From positions 1-50,007 of the forward strand of contig JAJYCJ010000012.1 of the NCBI GenBank assembly GCA_021778515.1: a DNA stretch of 50,007 nucleotides, read 5' to 3'. A model generated the notes under the pieces. It had not been told where the DNA came from, did no database searches, and saw only the letters and a program-made list of their open reading frames with translations. Source of the stretch: Acidobacteriota bacterium (GTDB taxonomy: Bacteria > Acidobacteriota > UBA4820 > DSQY01). Of the stretch, positions 36,338 to 47,268 are shown piece after piece. The stretch's first letter is position 1, and each line of letters starts with the position of its first letter. A program made the position numbers and the translations under genes.

Positions 36338-36663
36338 CCCAAATTCCGCGATTGACGGGCATGTGGCTTCGGCTATGGTTCCGGTTCACGGGGGGAAGAC
36401 ATTGTCTCTTGGACGGGGAGGGCCATGGGCTTCCTCCTCCGATTCGCAGGCCAAGCCTGACGAATCGTCGCGTTGCCCTCCGGGGCCCCGCCCCACGGGC
36501 AAAGCCCGCTGGGGCCCCACCCCACCCTCGGGGCTTCCTCCCCCGGACCAAGTCCGGGGTCGGAGGCAGCCCTAATCCCTTGGCGGGTCAACACCGGCTT
36601 TCGCGGAATCCACATTCTATCTGCCTTTCGGCGCTACTACCACGTCCAATCGCGGGATTTGGG
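36338..36663. mobile_element. miniature inverted-repeat element, copy A
   Basis: 326 bp. Ends CCCAAATTCCGCGATTG and CAATCGCGGGATTTGGG are inverted repeats (one mismatch). It is flanked by the direct repeat CTAGA (36333-36337 and 36664-36668). It lies between the stop codons of the convergent NapH-like and DUF962 genes; both stops are part of the duplicated CTAG. Internal hairpins (GGGCAAAGCCC) occur. It encodes no protein and would need a transposase in trans. Confidence 0.88.
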
Positions 36664-36969
36664 CTAGAACGGGATCTTGCCGGTGAGGATGGAGAAAAAC
36701 ATCACCCAGTCGCCCGCCAGGCTATAGAGCGGGTGGGTGAAGGTGGCCGGCCGGTTCTTCTCGAAGACGAAGTGGCCCACCCAGGCGAAGCCGTAGCCCG
36801 CCACGGGCATGAGGAGCAGGAGCCACCAGATCCTGGTGATCGCGGCCGAGGCCAGGAGGGCGAGCACCAGGAGGCTGCCGATGAAGTGGAGCCTCCGGCA
36901 GGTGCGGTTGCGGTGCTCCGAGAGGTAGAAGGGGTAGAACTCCGCAAAGCGCGCGTACCGCTCCTTCAT
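36664..36969 (-). CDS. DUF962 (Mpo1-like) membrane protein
   Basis: 101 aa, with 'YARFAEFYPFYLSEHRNRTCRRLHFIGSLL' and 'MPVAGYGFAWVGHFVFEKNRPATFTHPLYSLAGDWVMF', the typical DUF962/Mpo1 pattern with conserved His residues; Mpo1 is a dioxygenase of fatty-acid alpha-oxidation in yeast. Two or three TM helices. The ATG at 36969 is part of the 5-bp duplication TCATG of the older element, so the bases just upstream are element sequence (CGCGGGATTTGGCC). The original GGAGAAAAGGCC stands beyond the element near 37580. Confidence 0.85.
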   Translation of the reverse strand: MKERYARFAEFYPFYLSEHRNRTCRRLHFIGSLLVLALLASAAITRIWWLLLLMPVAGYGFAWVGHFVFEKNRPATFTHPLYSLAGDWVMFFSILTGKIPF

Positions 36970-36970
36970 G

Positions 36971-37566
36971 GCCAAATCCCGCGATGGACATGCTCTGCCT
37001 TCGGCGATGGGGATGGTTCACGGCGGAAAGGAAGCGTCTCCAAAACGGGGAGGGCCATTCCCTCCCCGCTCCGCGGGCAACCCAAATTCCGCGATTGAAA
37101 TACGGGTGGCTTCGGCCAGGTTTCGGACACACGGGGGAAAGGCATTGTCTCTTGGACGGGGAGGGCCATGGGCTTCCTCCTCCGATTCGCAGGCAAAGCC
37201 TGCCGAATCGTCGTGTTGTCCTCCGGGGCCCCGCCCCACGGGCAAAGCCCGTTGGGGCCCCACCCCACCCTTGGGGCTTCCTCGCCCGGCCTGGGCCGGG
37301 TTCGAAGGCCACCCAAATCCCTTCGCGGGTGAAGACCGTCTTTCACGGGAACTACCCTCCATCTGCCTTTCGGAGCCACTCCCATGTCCAATCGCGGGAT
37401 TTGGGGCAAAGCCCGTGGAGCCTCACCCCACTCTTGGAGCATTCTTCCCCCGGATCCAGTCCGGGGTCGAATGACCCAATCCCTTGAAATGCAATCGGCG
37501 GTTTTGCCAGAAAGCAGCATTCATGAGCATTCGGACCTTCTTGTCCCCGCCATCGCGGGATTGGGG
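36971..37566. mobile_element. older miniature element (copy B/D), split by copy C
   Basis: Left part 36971-37080 starts GCCAAATCCCGCGATGG and right part 37410-37566 ends CCATCGCGGGATTGGGG; joined, they form one element of about 267 bp. It is flanked by the direct repeat TCATG (36966-36970 and 37567-37571). Removing copy C and one target copy restores the GGGCAAAGCCC hairpin found whole in copies A and C. Confidence 0.85.
37081..37404. mobile_element. miniature inverted-repeat element, copy C, nested
   Basis: About 325 bp with ends CCCAAATTCCGCGATTG and CAATCGCGGGATTTGG. It is inserted into the loop of the hairpin of the older element, with GGCAA on both sides (37076-37080 and 37405-37409; the length is ambiguous between 4 and 6 because of flanking G). 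It is close to copy A over its whole length. Confidence 0.88.
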
Positions 37567-40334: not shown

Positions 40335-42119
40335 CTAACCCCGACCGGAAGGCAGGTCCACGGGTCCGGAGCGGGAAACCGGAAGCGGCCCGTCCATCTC
40401 CAGCACGAGGTAGGGAGGCGGCTCGCTACCGCCCCCGCGGATGAGCCGGACGCCGTCCCCCTTGAGAGAGGCCAGGGGCCAGAGGCCGGGCGCGGTCCCG
40501 GCGGCCTCGCGGATGCGCCATCGTCCGCCCTCCGGCAGGAGGCCCGTGTGGAACTCCTCGCTGAAGGCCAGGGTCTTGGCCAGATGGGGCCGCAGCCGGA
40601 CGAGGGCGGCGGAGGGGCTGCTGGCGATCCGGAAGAGGCGGTTTCTCCCGAAGACCGGCTCCGCGTGTTCGAGGACCATGCCGTTGAGGGCGTCGTTGGG
40701 GGTGGCGGCGAGGACCCTCCGGTAGCCGAGCTCCGCGGCGTCTTCATAGAGGCTCTCGTCGAGGGCGTTGCCCTGAACCACCTCCACGCCCGGAATGGCC
40801 GTGGCCTGCACCTTGGCCGGATCGCTGTCCAGCAGCCGCACGGGGACCCTGCCCGAAAGGGCCGTTGCGAGCGCCGTGGAGAAGGGGTTGATGCCCACGA
40901 TCACGATGCCCGTCCTGGACTCCGCGACGCGGATCCGCAGGAGCCAGGCGAGGGGGCGTCCCATGAGGGTCGCAAAGCCCGCCGAGAGGGCGATCACCAG
41001 GAAGGTCAGGGCGAAGGCCTCGCGGGCCATGGGGTCATCGCCCCGCTGGGTCAGCACGAAGGAGGCGGTGGCCAGGGCGACGATGCCGCGAGGGCCGATG
41101 AGGGCCGTGAAGAGCCGCTCCGCCATCGGGAGCTCGGTTCCCCAGAAGGCGAGGAAGAGGCTGGCTGGGCGCACGATGAAGCCCAGGATGAGCGCCGTCA
41201 GCAGGAGCCTGGTGAGGTTTCCCTGGATCGCCGAAAGGTGAAAGAGGCCCGAGAGCAGGACGAAGAGCATGCTGATGAAGAGGTAGGCCACCTGGCCTTT
41301 GAAGAGGCGGATCTCCGCCGCGAAGGGGCCCTTCATCGTGACCAGCGTGAAGCCCGCGACGGCGCTGGCGATGGGGCCGCTCCCGGGGCTCAGGGTCTGA
41401 GCGGCGGTGAAGGCGAGGATGGCCCACGCCAGGGCCGCCATGCCCGGCAACTCGGGCTCCCCGAGCTTGGCCAGCGCCGGGAGCACCCACCTGGCGAGCA
41501 GGACCCCGGCGACGACGCCCATCACCGCCGCCAGCCCGACCATCTCGAAGAGGTGGTAGGGGAGGCTGGCGAGGGCCTTCGGGCCGCGCTGGATCCAGAA
41601 GGGGAGCACCAGGCTCGCCATGAGGATGCCGAGGCAGTCCCCCCAGATGGCCTCGTTGCGTAAGAGGACCTCGAGCCGGCGGCTGATGGCAAGGCTCCGG
41701 AGCAGGGGACCGATGGTGGTGGGGCCGGTGACCGAGATGAGGGCGCCGAAGGCGGCGGAGGCCAGCGGATCGAGCCCGGCCACGAAGTGCGCCGTGAGGG
41801 CCGAGAGCACGGCCGTCATCGGCATGCCGATGCCCAGAAGACGGCGCGAGGAGTGGGGCAGGGCCCCGCCCGCCGAGCTGGGGAGGCTCAGGGCCCCCTC
41901 GAAGAGGATGATGGCCAGGCCGAACTCCACGAGGGTGGAGAGGCGGTCGCCTAGGGCCTGGGGGCTTATCCAGCCCAGCCCCATGGGCCCCAGCGCGAGG
42001 CCCGCGAGGAGGTAGAAGAGCAGGGGAGGAACGCGCAGACGCCGAGCCAGGCTCATGGCCGTGACCCCCATCCAGAGGGCCAGGCCGAGGGTGAGCGTGA
42101 TGGTCTCGTGGTTGGACAA
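40335..42119 (-). CDS. CPA1-type Na+/H+ antiporter with TrkA-N-like domain
   Basis: 594 aa. About 11-12 TM helices in the first 400 residues with 'LVEFGLAIILFEGALSL' and 'SVTGPTTIGPLLRSL', the ion-binding region of the CPA1/NhaP group. The C-terminal region has a TrkA-N Rossmann fold ('GIVIVGINPFSTALATALSG') that may sense nucleotides. It exchanges Na+ or K+ for H+. It starts with TTG (42117-42119) preceded by GGAGGAGG; no in-frame ATG is better. Confidence 0.92.
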   Translation of the reverse strand: MSNHETITLTLGLALWMGVTAMSLARRLRVPPLLFYLLAGLALGPMGLGWISPQALGDRLSTLVEFGLAIILFEGALSLPSSAGGALPHSSRRLLGIGMPMTAVLSALTAHFVAGLDPLASAAFGALISVTGPTTIGPLLRSLAISRRLEVLLRNEAIWGDCLGILMASLVLPFWIQRGPKALASLPYHLFEMVGLAAVMGVVAGVLLARWVLPALAKLGEPELPGMAALAWAILAFTAAQTLSPGSGPIASAVAGFTLVTMKGPFAAEIRLFKGQVAYLFISMLFVLLSGLFHLSAIQGNLTRLLLTALILGFIVRPASLFLAFWGTELPMAERLFTALIGPRGIVALATASFVLTQRGDDPMAREAFALTFLVIALSAGFATLMGRPLAWLLRIRVAESRTGIVIVGINPFSTALATALSGRVPVRLLDSDPAKVQATAIPGVEVVQGNALDESLYEDAAELGYRRVLAATPNDALNGMVLEHAEPVFGRNRLFRIASSPSAALVRLRPHLAKTLAFSEEFHTGLLPEGGRWRIREAAGTAPGLWPLASLKGDGVRLIRGGGSEPPPYLVLEMDGPLPVSRSGPVDLPSGRG

Positions 42120-42418
42120 CGCCTCCTCCCTCCTCTGCGTCGCCCCAGTATAGCCGGTCGGCCGCGGGGCGCGGAACGGCAGGTGCGAGATGAGGCGATG
42201 AGGTGATTAGGGTGGGAGGAGGCCTTCGAAGGCGCCGCGGTGGACGAGAGAACCGCGGGGTCGAGCGGCGGCAGGCTGGGAAGAGGAAATTCGGGACATC
42301 GGTCACTTGCAGGCCGGGCGCCTCGGTGGCGGTCGGCCCACAAGGCCTGGAGATGCAGGATCCGGACAAGCGTAGGGGGGAGGCGGCCGCCTCCCCCCTA
42401 CGCTTGCACGGCCCCGCG
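42120..42418. other. 299-bp region between antiporter and export operon
   Basis: Contains a TTCGAAGG repeat (42222-42229, recurring at 32.68 and 34.93 kb), a run of GATGAGG direct repeats (42189-42202) and a perfect 40-bp palindrome. No gene is seen. Confidence 0.55.
42367..42406. repeat. perfect 40-bp palindrome after the export operon
   Basis: Bases 42367-42386 are the exact reverse complement of 42387-42406 with no loop (CAAGCGTAGG... centre GCGGCCGC). It lies 13 bases past the stop of the last operon gene, where a terminator is expected, but there is no U-tract. Confidence 0.85.
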
Positions 42419-43636
42419 CTACCCCGGAGAGACGAGGGCTCTGGCGGGGTCGAGGTAAGCGGCGCGGAGGGCGGGAGCCAGCCCCGAGAGGAGGCCGAGC
42501 CCCACGGAGAGGGTGAACGACAGCGCCGCTCCGCTCCAGGGCCAGACGAGCGGCCAGCCCGCGGTGAGGCAGACGAGGGCGGTCCCGCCGAAGCCGGCCA
42601 GCGCGCCGGCCGCCCCGCCCGTCCCGGAGAGGGCGGCGGCTTCTACCAGAAACTGGAGCGCCACGGCTCCCCGCGTGGCTCCGATGGCCCGCCTCAGGCC
42701 GATCTCCCCCGTGCGCTCCCGCACCGAGAGGAGCATCACCGCCGCGATACCGGCGCAGCCTGTCAGCAGCGAGACTCCGGCCACGGCCTCCATGAGTCCC
42801 TGGAAAGCCGCACCCATGTCGTGCTGGGCCTTGAGGAGCGCCGCCGGATCCTGAATCGTGAAGTCGTTGCCCCGGTTGGGGGGCAGGCGGTGGGCCTGGC
42901 GCAGGACGGCTATCATGCGTCCCGTGGTGGTGCCCAGGTCCGCTCCGGGGCGGGCCTGGACCTCGATGCTCGCCAGGTAGGAGACGCCGAAGAGCCGGCC
43001 CATGGCCGTGGTGAGGGGAACATAGAGGGTATCGGCCCCCTGCTCGTCCGCTCCGCCCTCGTCCTGGACCACTCCCACGACCCGAAAGAGGACGCCCCCC
43101 ACGCGCAGATCCGCGCCCAGTGGCCGGGCTCCCAGGCGCAGATCCCGTACCGTCCTGGCACTCAGCACGGCCAGCCGGGCCTGGCCCCGATTCTCCTCTG
43201 GCGTGAAGAACCGTCCGGCTGTCAGGTGTAGCCTCGACATGGCGAAATAGGGCGGCTCGACCCCCAGCACCGACACCAGCCCCTTCTCCCGGCCGCACGT
43301 CACGACCTTTTGGTCCTCGGCGATGCCCGAGGCCGAGGCGAGCTGGGGGACCTCCTGGAGGAGGGTTGCAGCATCAGCCGGCACGAGCGTAGTGAACGAC
43401 GCCACCTGCATCTGCCGGTTGCCGATGGGCTGGAACTCCCCCGCCTGGACCACGAGCACGCGGGTCCCCAGGGCGTCGAGACGGCGGTTCAGGTCCTTCT
43501 GGGCCGACTGCCCCGTCCCCAGCATGAGCGTCACCGCGCAGACCCCCACGAAGACCGCCGAGCAGGACAAGAAGGTCCTCGCCTTGTGAGCGATCAGGAC
43601 CCCCAGCGAGGAGGCAAGCAGGCGGCGCGTCATCAT
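42419..43636 (-). CDS. MacB/FtsX-type ABC transporter permease
   Basis: 405 aa: one N-terminal TM, a large extracytoplasmic MacB_PCD-like domain (about 40-270) and three C-terminal TM helices in the FtsX pattern ('[30 protein letters not shown]'). With the ATPase directly upstream (24-bp gap) and the adaptor, it makes a MacAB-like efflux unit. The substrate cannot be told. Confidence 0.92.
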
Positions 43637-43660: not shown

Positions 43661-44338
43661 TCAGGCCACGGACCGGTCGGATTCCACGGTGCCGTCCCGG
43701 AGCGCTACGATCCGTTTGGCCCGGGCGGCCACGGCGGGATCATGCGTAACGAGGATGAGCGTTCGCCCCTGGGCGTGGAGCTGGTCGAAGAGATCCAGAA
43801 TTTCGGCACCGGCCTTCTGGTCCAGGTTGCCCGTGGGCTCGTCGGCCAGGATGAGCGCCGGCTCGTTGATGAGGGCCCTAGCGATGGCCACCCGCTGCTG
43901 CTGCCCACCGGAGAGGGCATAAGGCTTGTACTTGACGCGATCTCCGAGTCCCACCTGCTCCAGCAGCCCCTTGCCGCGCTCCTTGGCATCCTTCGGGTAG
44001 TGCGGCGAATACAACAGGGGCAGCAACACATTGTCCAAGGCGGAGATCCGGGGCAGCAGGTGGAAGAGCTGGAAGACGAACCCGATGCGCTGGTTACGGA
44101 GGCGTGAGAGAGCCCTGTCGCCCAGGTCCGTGACATCCTCTCCATCGAACAGGTAGCGGCCGCCCGAGGCCGAGTCCAAGAGCCCCAGGACGTTCATGAG
44201 GGTGCTCTTGCCCGTCCCGGAGGGGCCCATGAGGGCCACGTATTCGCCCTGTTCGATGGTGAGATCGATCCCCCGGAGCACCGGCGTCTCCACCCCACCC
44301 GCTTGGTAGGTCTTCTCTATCTTCTGGAGCTGGATCAT
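43661..44338 (-). CDS. MacB/LolD-type ABC ATP-binding protein
   Basis: 225 aa, a complete ATPase: Walker [11 protein letters not shown]-loop '[10 protein letters not shown]', signature [15 protein letters not shown], Walker B '[12 protein letters not shown]' and His switch 'LVTHDP'. This is the LolD/MacB subfamily that partners FtsX-like permeases. AAGAGGAGG precedes ATG 44338. It sits between adaptor (16-bp gap) and permease in the operon. Confidence 0.94.
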
Positions 44339-44354
44339 GCGACCTCCTCTTTCA

Positions 44355-45437
44355 TCACGCCCCACCGCTCTGAGCCTGGGGAAGGAGGACCTCTTCCCCT
44401 TCGGACAGGCCGTCTTTGATGGGAATCTCTCCGCCGCTCTGCGAACCGCAAACCACGATCTTCTTCTGGGGCTTGCCCTTCACCATCACCGTCACGTAGC
44501 TGCTCCCCTGGGCGTCATACTGAACCGCCCCCGCAGGCACCACGAGGGCCGCCCGGTGTTCGCCCGTCTCGATGGAGACGGTGGCCGTCATGGCGGGACG
44601 TAGAATCCCCTTGGGGCCCTTCTGGATGGCGAGCAACACCACGTAGTTGACAACGTTGTTGCGCACCATGGCCTGGGGAATCACGGCCTGCACCGTTCCG
44701 TGGAAGGTCTCCGAGGGCGCCGCATCCACCGTAAAGGTGGCCGCCTGACCGGGCTTCACGCGCCCGATGTCCACCTCGTCCACGTAGGCATCCACCTGGA
44801 GGCGATTGAGGTCCACGATCGTGACGAAGGTCGGCACCGCGAAGCTCGCGGCCACCGTCTCGCCCTCCTGGGTCGAAATGGCCGTCACGGTGCCTGATAT
44901 GGGCGCCCTCACGGTGGCGTAGCTTTGCACGATGCGCGCCGAGGCCAGGCGACTTTGGACACTTTCGAGAGCTGCCTTATCCACCGTGACGGTCTCGCGG
45001 GCAATGTCCAGGTCCTCCGGAGAGACGATGCCCTCCCGCTCCAAGCGGACCCGGCGCGCGAGAACCAGCTTGTCCAGATCCAGCTTGGCCCGGGCCTCCT
45101 TCACCGATGTCCCGGCGTCCCGGACGGCTTGGTCCAGATCCGCGTGTTCGATCTCCGCCAGCACCTCGCCGGTCTGGACGGTGTCACCCACCTTTACGTA
45201 GAGCTTCTGGAGAAGGCCTGAAATGCGGGGGCCGACCTTTACGTCCGCTCCCACCTGTGGCGTGATGGTGCCCGTGGCCGAGACGGTGCTCTCGAGCGTC
45301 CGCTGTTCCACCCGGACCAGCGTGCCGGTCACCTCGGCTTTTGGTTTCTTGCACCCCGCCACGCTGGCCAGGGCCACCACCGTCAAAAGGGCCACCACGG
45401 CCCCTCTCCCTATCCCGCGCCGCCTCTTACGCTCCAT
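44355..45437 (-). CDS. HlyD/MacA-type membrane-fusion lipoprotein
   Basis: 360 aa. A lipobox 'VALASVAGC' predicts a lipoprotein. Biotinyl-lipoyl-like halves surround a helical hairpin (about 110-165, with 'GTSVKEARAKLDLDKLVLARRVRLEREGIVSPEDLDIARETV'), then a beta-barrel 'VDIGRVKPGQAATFTVDA'. Such adaptors bridge inner-membrane ABC permeases to an outer-membrane channel. The site before ATG 45437 is weak (GGGGG). Confidence 0.92.
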   Translation of the reverse strand: MERKRRRGIGRGAVVALLTVVALASVAGCKKPKAEVTGTLVRVEQRTLESTVSATGTITPQVGADVKVGPRISGLLQKLYVKVGDTVQTGEVLAEIEHADLDQAVRDAGTSVKEARAKLDLDKLVLARRVRLEREGIVSPEDLDIARETVTVDKAALESVQSRLASARIVQSYATVRAPISGTVTAISTQEGETVAASFAVPTFVTIVDLNRLQVDAYVDEVDIGRVKPGQAATFTVDAAPSETFHGTVQAVIPQAMVRNNVVNYVVLLAIQKGPKGILRPAMTATVSIETGEHRAALVVPAGAVQYDAQGSSYVTVMVKGKPQKKIVVCGSQSGGEIPIKDGLSEGEEVLLPQAQSGGA

Positions 45438-45519
45438 CGCGAACCCCCTATCGCTCTGGCCGGTCTCATTATCGCCGGACCCGGCCTCATTGAAGGTGAC
45501 GCACCAGTTTGCGTCTTGT

Positions 45520-47268
45520 CTAGCCCGCCCTTCGGCGCCCTGGCTCCTTGCGGTTCCCATGGCCTTGGGCCAGGACGGCATAAGCCCCCCCGAGGGCCAG
45601 GAGCTCCGCATGCGTCCCCTGCTCCACAATCCGGCCGCTTTCCAGCACCCAGATCCGGTCGGCGTTTTGAACCGTGCTCAGCCGGTGGGCAATGATGAGC
45701 CGGGTGCAGCCCAGCCGGGCGAGATTGGTGTGAATGCTGGCTTCTGTAGGAGGGTCCAGCTCACTCGTGGCCTCGTCCAGGAGGAGAATGGCCGGCTGCC
45801 GCACGAGCGCTCTGGCCAGGCAGATGCGCTGGCGCTGCCCCCCGCTGATGTTGTTCGCCATTTCGGAGAGCAGGGTGTCGTAGCCCATCGGCATGGCTTC
45901 GATGTCATCGGCGATACAAGCCAGACGCGCCGCCTCCCGGACCCGTTCAAGGGACACGTCGGAGGCCCCGATCGTGATGTTGCGCCGGATGGTATCGTTG
46001 AAGAGAAAGGCGTTCTGAACTACCACCCCCGTCTGGCGCCGCAGGCTGGGAAGGTCGAGGACGGGGAGGCTCTTCCCGTCCCACAGGACTTCGCCTTTCG
46101 TGCAGGGATAGAGCCCCAGGAGCACCTTGGCCAGGGTGCTCTTGCCGGAGCCTGACTTCCCAACGAGAGCCACCAGCGCGCCTTCGGGCACCGTGGCGCT
46201 CACCTCTTTCAGGACCCACGGAGACTGCGGCCCGTAACGGAAGGACACATCACGGACCTCGATTTGGCCTCGCAGCTCGGGGGCCGCTTGGGGGTGCCTC
46301 GGCTCGGGCGGCTCTTCAAAGACCTCCTCCAGCCGTCCCAGGTGCGTTCCCATGACCTGGAAGCTTTGCATGTTGCTCACGAGGGAGTTGAGCGGAGCGA
46401 GAAAGGCCCCGGCCAGGGCCGCGAAGCCCAGCATCTCCCCTAGGCTCAAGTCCCCATGCAGCACGAGATGGGCGCCGCAGAGGAGCAAGAGAAGAGGGCT
46501 CGCCACGGTCAGGACTGTGCCCAGGCTTCTCAAGAGCGCACCCCGTTTTTGCCTGTTGAACGACGCTAGGAGCTGCTGGCCGAAGAATCCACGCCACGCT
46601 TGAAAGACTTCGTCCTCCGCTCCCGAGGCCTTGATGGTTTCCACCCCCCGCAGGACCTCCACAAGGTAGCTCTGGCTGCGGCTCTGGGCCGCGATGTCCT
46701 GGCGCACCGGTCCCTGCATGACTTTGGCCTCCACCAAGGCCCACACCACTTGCAAGAGCGCCAGGGACAGGACCAGCAGCGCGAGAGACCCATTGGTGGC
46801 CATCATGACGCCTAGGTACAACACCACCAACAGCCCATCCGTGGAGAGCGAGAGCAGTTGCTGGGACAACAGCTCCCGCACGAGCGAGTTGCTGGAGAGG
46901 CGCATCATCAGGTCGCCGGCCGACCGCACCTGAAAGAAGGAAAAAGGCAGGGACAGCAAGTGCTCGAAGAATCCCGCCATGGTGTGCTCGTCCACCATGA
47001 CCTGCAGGCCGAGGAGGAGAAGACTTCGCCCAAGCGACACCACCCCATAGGCGGCCAGGTACAATCCCAATCCCAGGGCGGCCACACGCAGGCCTGGCAG
47101 AGAGTGGGCCGGGACAACCCGGTCCACGACATACGCCGTCAAAAGCGGCAGGGCCAGCCCCAGCGCTTGAACAGCGAGGGACAAGAGGGCCACGAACGAA
47201 AGCGTGCCCCGCCGCTCTAGCAGGATGTTGAAAAAACCATTGTCGCCATTATAGCCATATGATATCAT
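45520..47268 (-). CDS. bacteriocin-type ABC exporter, 5' truncated by an IS element
   Basis: Native sequence begins at codon LERRGTLSF, 47220. It holds six TM helices and an ATPase domain with Walker A GKSGSGKST, signature ISGGQRQR and Walker B 'ILLLDEATSELD', close to NHLM/peptidase-type exporters. These often have an N-terminal C39 peptidase domain; here the N-terminal part is missing because an IS element lies there. The frame continues into the IS, and an in-frame ATG at 47268 gives 582 aa, the normal size of an exporter core. There is no ribosome site before it, so expression is doubtful. Confidence 0.8.
   Translation of the reverse strand: MISYGYNGDNGFFNILLERRGTLSFVALLSLAVQALGLALPLLTAYVVDRVVPAHSLPGLRVAALGLGLYLAAYGVVSLGRSLLLLGLQVMVDEHTMAGFFEHLLSLPFSFFQVRSAGDLMMRLSSNSLVRELLSQQLLSLSTDGLLVVLYLGVMMATNGSLALLVLSLALLQVVWALVEAKVMQGPVRQDIAAQSRSQSYLVEVLRGVETIKASGAEDEVFQAWRGFFGQQLLASFNRQKRGALLRSLGTVLTVASPLLLLLCGAHLVLHGDLSLGEMLGFAALAGAFLAPLNSLVSNMQSFQVMGTHLGRLEEVFEEPPEPRHPQAAPELRGQIEVRDVSFRYGPQSPWVLKEVSATVPEGALVALVGKSGSGKSTLAKVLLGLYPCTKGEVLWDGKSLPVLDLPSLRRQTGVVVQNAFLFNDTIRRNITIGASDVSLERVREAARLACIADDIEAMPMGYDTLLSEMANNISGGQRQRICLARALVRQPAILLLDEATSELDPPTEASIHTNLARLGCTRLIIAHRLSTVQNADRIWVLESGRIVEQGTHAELLALGGAYAVLAQGHGNRKEPGRRRAG

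Follow-up and report, generated by a model that had tools for sequence, protein, structure and literature searches.

The perfect palindrome at positions 42367-42406 of the window, i.e. the whole stretch of 50,007 nucleotides that we analysed (the entire contig C3 of the source genome, G000, whose assembly comprises 3.34 Mb in 176 contigs), is most likely the 3'-end hairpin of a MacB-type export operon, and it would serve there as a U-poor ("I-shaped") terminator and a shield against exonucleases, insulating the antiporter gene that follows. The gene upstream of the palindrome (42419-43636, minus strand) codes for a MacB-like/FtsX permease of 405 amino acids (Pfam MacB_PCD and FtsX) and appears to be the last of the operon, to which the genes for an ABC transporter ATPase (43661-44365, minus strand; Pfam ABC_tran) and an HlyD-type membrane-fusion protein (44355-45629, minus strand; Pfam HlyD_D23) probably also belong; we group the three as an export operon because of their spacing. 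Downstream lies a gene for a Na/H exchanger (antiporter) with a TrkA_N domain (40335-42119, minus strand, the first possible start being taken; Pfam Na_H_Exchanger and TrkA_N), so that the two neighbours of the palindrome share the minus strand. The palindrome is separated from the antiporter reading frame by a 247-bp intergenic stretch (42120-42366) that matches nothing else in the sequence sampled. The first-pass annotation had put the palindrome 13 bases past the end of the operon; its position just after the gene is correct, but the stop codon of the permease gene occupies 42419-42421 and the bases between the two number 12.

The palindrome is 40 bp long and consists, as had been claimed before, of two exact 20-bp arms with no loop in the DNA. 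It forms the inner part of an extended inverted repeat (42362-42411) with 25-bp arms that are 92% complementary, with two mismatches. Judging by base composition, zero-spacer arms of 20 bp are expected 5.0e-7 times in the window and 3.3e-5 times in 3.34 Mb, and the longest arm among 60 sequences of 50 kb simulated with an order-3 Markov model measured 12 bp, compared to the maximum of 20 bp observed in the window. Because the chance expectation is so small and the simulations never went above 12-bp arms, the palindrome is a non-random feature. Its GCGGCCGC centre is not rare in this genome: the window alone has nine such sites, and there are 61 in 400 kb of genomic sequence. The accompanying remark that repeats of this kind are unstable in many hosts was overstated, as the palindromes used in a study of Escherichia coli were far longer (246- and 480-bp interrupted ones and a 460-bp perfect one in the portion of the paper available to us; PMC4245961). 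According to the same portion, SbcCD can cut, in vitro, hairpins formed by palindromes above about 20-36 bp; as 40 bp is just above this limit, a mild cost of keeping the palindrome is possible. A search for SbcC (TIGR00618) gave no match in the source genome, while all 14 control genomes were matched, one of them over the cut-off. The absence of SbcC is only suggestive, since a missing match in an assembly that is 97% complete is no proof.

When read as minus-strand RNA, the palindrome is predicted to fold into a very GC-rich stem of 18 pairs closed by a 4-base GGCC loop, the stem being lengthened in the model by one G-U pair and, beyond a mismatch, three more pairs. The 70 nt following the permease stop codon reach -59.0 kcal/mol, the lowest folding energy among 311 gene ends (z -7.5). 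A 91-nt context of the plus strand folds better than 200 of 200 shuffled versions, and a 66-nt piece of the minus strand likewise folds better than all its shuffles (z -4.80). The hairpin thus combines two hallmarks of a canonical intrinsic terminator, a stable GC-rich stem and a position shortly (12 nt) after a stop codon. The U-tract directly after the full stem is absent, with two T in nine bases, a number that rises to four of nine if the outer 8 bp of the stem (TACGCTTG) are counted by eye as the tail, and a consensus terminator scan did not list the palindrome. Since the U-tract is missing, the hairpin falls outside the canonical definition of an intrinsic terminator; the class that comes closest is that of the U-less "I-shaped" terminators, i.e. 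strong hairpins after a gene without a U-trail, which is what the predicted fold and its position amount to. The window contains no match to any Rfam family at the gathering score, and neither a tRNA nor a tmRNA was found in it.

The frequency of such hairpins in the source genome (phylum Acidobacteriota) was judged from a sample of 459,349 bases (about 14% of the genome), made up of 20 stretches of 20 kb together with the window and contig C36. Genes (326 in total) were called with a simple home-made tool, which missed some real ones (e.g. that at 44355-45629), and the class here called intergenic may hold a few such missed genes. Perfect inverted repeats with arms of at least 10 bp and spacers of 0-8 number 12 in the 15.5 kb lying up to 80 nt past stop codons (0.77 per kb), 12 in 81 kb of other intergenic DNA (0.15 per kb) and seven in 363 kb of coding DNA (0.019 per kb), so that their density after stops is about 40 times that in coding DNA. 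With arms of at least 11 bp, there remain 15 cases, seven of them after stops, eight in other intergenic DNA and none in coding DNA. A folding z-score below -2 (relative to shuffles that keep base composition only) characterizes 18% of 108 ends followed by a same-strand gene at a gap of at least 80 and 18% of 74 ends facing a gene on the other strand, the corresponding share being 6% for the 81 within-operon ends and 5% for the full set of 311 gene interiors; in the interiors of the 81 within-operon genes the proportion is 11%, above that of their own ends. A T-rich tail (at least four T in nine bases) accompanies 15 of 22 gene-end hairpins in a table that includes the window and C36 and counts some hairpins once per strand, whereas only one of 68 control tails at inverted repeats in coding DNA is as rich in T. 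The source genome thus uses T-tailed hairpins, and the hairpin of the window departs from that pattern.

Two other gene-end hairpins from the sample illustrate the form that these structures can take. One, at L094:6712-6757, is 46 bases long, has perfect 21-bp arms with A/T-rich outer pairs, lies between two convergent genes and looks like a bidirectional terminator; it occupies two rows among the 40 lowest-energy ends listed, with z-scores (-9.7 and -10.1) below the -7.5 of the window. The other, at L103:10644-10674, reads AAAAAGGGGGCGGC-AAC-GCCGCCCCCTTTTT and has an A-stem-T form. Given these examples and the enrichment past stops, gene-end hairpins, some of them bidirectional in form, are regular in the source genome, and the hairpin of the window stands at the extreme of the set.

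The class as such is already known, since perfect inverted repeats of bacteria have been reported to peak after stop codons, mostly with spacers of 4-5 bp (PMC13155455, in the part accessible to us); the present case is less usual only in having a zero spacer and no U-tract. A terminator was one of three possibilities raised by the first-pass annotation, and it is the one best supported, because of the position of the palindrome, its fold and the enrichment of hairpins after stops, with the missing U-tract speaking against it. Upon transcription of the minus strand, the folded hairpin would stop or pause RNA polymerase, either alone or with help from Rho and Nus factors, would shield the 3' end of the mRNA against exonucleases and would insulate the antiporter gene located downstream on the same strand; owing to the perfect symmetry, the same hairpin would form whichever direction is transcribed. 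Transcription of the palindrome, the transcript end at this site and the factor used are all parts that we infer, in the case of termination because the T-rich tail is missing. The literature on hairpins of this type, as far as the accessible sections of the respective papers go, is divided. U-less hairpins have been called fairly common in GC-rich mycobacteria, while hairpins without a U-tract were reported to cause no termination by the RNA polymerase of Mycobacterium bovis, and the evidence for termination by U-less hairpins has been called contradictory (all in PMC5335608); one study of 13 genomes argues that the U-trail is unnecessary (PMC8355165).

Among known elements, the hairpin of the window resembles the I-shaped terminators of GC-rich bacteria, e.g. 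TtsaD of Mycobacterium tuberculosis, which also follows a gene and lacks a U-trail (PMC5335608, accessible part). However, TtsaD is reported there to be active in one orientation only, whereas the hairpin of the window, itself a putative terminator, is perfectly symmetric. The symmetric stem, giving the same hairpin from either strand, is shared with bidirectional intrinsic terminators. Yet the bidirectional candidates from the same genome mentioned above (L094:6712-6757 and L103:10644-10674) have A/T-rich outer pairs that give U-tails, while the outer pairs in the window are mixed (CAAGCGTA/TACGCTTG), and, unlike the situation at bidirectional terminators, there is no convergent gene on the other side of the palindrome. 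In sum, the kind of feature is ordinary, though this example of it is exceptionally perfect and stable, and it probably ends or protects the transcript of the export operon. It offers a case in which to test whether, in Acidobacteriota, a strong hairpin can bring about termination without a U-tract; according to the part of the paper at hand, this phylum was left out of the 13-genome study for want of good RNA-seq data (PMC8355165).

A search of the whole genome for other copies, which the first-pass annotation had proposed as a check, was done with a 181-bp region and revealed a single further place, C36:7348-7397. The unit common to the two sites (42375-42424 in the window, minus strand) is 50 bp long, 48 of the 50 positions being identical without gaps, and it spans the permease stop codon, the left arm and the right arm up to the end of the GC core. 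The hairpin on C36 is located between the stop of one minus-strand gene and the next minus-strand gene, with 31 nt between the stop and the core, and the unit is inverted there relative to its upstream gene. A genome from the same genus (G001) keeps a hairpin after the same gene, its palindrome region being identical to that on C36 and its left flank different; the DNA beyond the hairpin in G001 is unrelated, and the sequence beyond the C36 hairpin matches G001 13.2 kb away. As the same pairing of gene and hairpin occurs in G001 even though the DNA beyond differs, the two seem to have stayed together across a rearrangement. Both of these hairpins nevertheless constitute weaker evidence than that of the window, because they fold little or no better than shuffled sequences (z -0.47 for C36 and -1.42 for G001) and because of the state of the upstream gene in G001: this gene (G001:C44:64617-65423, L070), orthologous at 83% identity to the one that precedes the hairpin on C36, contains one in-frame TGA and may be a broken gene or reflect an assembly error.

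The comparison of the three sequences also suggests how the perfect symmetry came about. The sequence of the outer right arm is GTGCGTC both on C36 and in G001, and it does not complement the left arm. In the window, on the other hand, TACGCTTG, the 8-bp outer right arm, is exactly complementary to CAAGCGTA, the left arm, and this complementarity includes the sole arm base (T) at which the left arm in the window differs from that on C36. Template switching during replication, with one arm serving as the template for the other, would produce this state in a single step, and the perfect symmetry is its probable by-product; according to the accessible part of PMC8794818, events of this type can generate perfect hairpins and repair their pairing. 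The case may exemplify the origin of an exact palindrome at the end of a bacterial gene. Among 12 relatives searched, a single close ortholog of the permease gene was found, in G005 (80% identity); it has no such palindrome after its stop codon, and its sequence beyond the stop is unalignable with C3. A more far-reaching proposal, which we consider unlikely, is that the 50-bp unit represents a copyable terminator module, a hairpin centred on the palindrome that would spread from one gene end to another through conversion or through template switching primed by the palindrome. Being symmetric, it could land in either orientation, and copying from arm to arm would perfect it after the move.

With up to two mismatches, the 22-bp core is present in 11 of 199 genomes searched, including the source genome and G001, and a 67-bp query retrieves (E at most 0.001) five of 396 genomes of the phylum, namely the same two and G003, G025 and G090, whose matches are weak (79-96% over 23-48 bases). 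The exact core occurs in seven stretches in the public genome collection, i.e. in the record of G001 and in six unrelated genomes. In four of these six it follows the stop of a Pfam-matched gene: 3 nt after a GntR/UTRA gene in Nocardiopsis, where it faces a convergent dehydrogenase gene; 14 nt after TctC in Desulfarculus; 37 nt after an oxidoreductase gene in a Bacillota assembly, as part of an independent 42-bp perfect palindrome that faces a convergent ThuA gene; and 79 nt after a gene of the MYG1 family in "Candidatus Heteroruminococcus" (L083), where it also stands just before an alanine racemase gene. The only neighbouring gene resolved in the remaining two, a Streptomyces and a member of Betaproteobacteria, starts after the hairpin. 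In our reading, GC-rich hairpins have arisen independently between genes, in most cases where a gene ends, and the shared core does not reflect common descent. Plasmid records searched with the 181-bp region gave no match. A repeated motif of the DNA-uptake type was rejected as well, as a 17-mer is not over-represented at up to three mismatches, its counts of 11 and 14 being below the 17 and 20 of the reversed control.

Several alternatives to an I-shaped terminator deserve consideration. One of them, which is possible and overlaps with the preferred explanation in that both invoke a gene-end hairpin, is that the palindrome acts solely as a post-transcriptional barrier: Rho would terminate transcription further downstream and exonucleases would trim the transcript back to a hairpin that does not itself terminate. 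This is a live rival because Rho is present in the source genome (702 bits, over the cut-off), and it accords with the very stable stem and the lack of a U-tract; the T-tailed gene-end hairpins common in the same genome, on the other hand, suggest that intrinsic termination is in use. A role at the level of DNA, i.e. as the site of a dimeric protein or as a cruciform or supercoiling element with no RNA signal, could likewise draw on the perfect dyad symmetry, and the palindrome is upstream of the antiporter gene as much as it is downstream of the permease gene. A typical operator is, however, shorter than 20-bp perfect arms with long G-runs, the antiporter reading frame is 247 bp away, and, in bacteria that are not related to one another, the core stands next to unrelated genes, unlike what one regulon would produce; we thus find such a role unlikely. 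Least probable in our view is an artefact of assembly or sequencing, be it a fold-back chimera or misjoined contigs. The assembly is indeed fragmented (176 contigs) and the exact palindrome has been seen in no second assembly, but a fold-back chimera would have flanks that are reverse complements of each other, whereas here the complementarity stops at 25 bp (the arms ending at 20-25 bp), and the flanks, which have no other match, bear no relation to each other. Contigs were not joined through an identical repeat either, as the two copies differ at two bases in the shared 50 bp. Misassembly is therefore unlikely, given the unrelated flanks, the near-copy at a second site and the related hairpin kept at the C36 site in the congeneric G001; the Bacillota assembly, in which a separate perfect palindrome of 42 bp shares this core, points in the same direction.

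The idea that the palindrome is a relic of a mobile element (a REP, a MITE or the end of an insertion sequence) was also among the suggestions of the first-pass annotation. It draws on the 50-bp near-copy elsewhere in the genome (48/50), on three matches to Y1 tyrosine transposases, on the absence of the palindrome after the G005 ortholog and on a GTAG near the edge of the shared unit in the window, GTAG being the tag of one REP superfamily (PMC3733652, accessible part). REP elements described there are, like the palindrome, short and intergenic, with near-copies elsewhere, but they exist in many dispersed copies, whereas the core is found (at up to two mismatches) at only two places in the source genome, and the 17-mer mentioned above shows no excess over its reversed control. 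The end tag is not conserved, as the GTAG in the window overlaps the stop codon, its counterpart on C36 reads GGAG, and G001 has neither GTAG nor CGTC at this place. No transposase was detected with Pfam in six neighbouring reading frames, all three Y1_Tnp matches are on contigs other than that of the window, and at the two of these three loci that were read there is no perfect hairpin with arms of at least 9 bp. An abundant 272-bp repeat ends 94 bases from the C36 copy, yet is 4.9 kb off in the window. Within the 181-bp region, only the 50-bp unit recurs in the genome, and alignment with the G005 ortholog breaks off past the stop. With so few copies and no associated element found, we rejected a REP/RAYT, MITE or insertion-sequence relic as improbable. 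An integron attC site was considered separately: the core sites of attC are RYYYAAC and GTTRRRY, and inspection by eye found neither AAC nor GTT in 42362-42411.

The 272-bp repeat is worth describing in its own right. Located in an intergenic region of C36 (L109, 6982-7253), it is dispersed and MITE-like, bounded by 17-bp terminal inverted repeats with a single mismatch between them. It yields 55 match rows in the source genome (including the query itself, fragments of individual copies and one non-repeat row), several of them at the ends of contigs, and G001, G002, G004 and G005 give additional rows; variants with 75-87% identity are present in the window at 36338-37486. A comparison of G000:C36:6952-7358 with G001:C44:51284-64543 indicates that about 13.2 kb of G001 is replaced by about 400 bp in the source genome. 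The MITE-like repeat lies inside these 400 bp, the C36 hairpin is at their edge, and in the 13.2-kb segment of G001 it is a gene for an HsdM-type DNA methylase that adjoins the hairpin.
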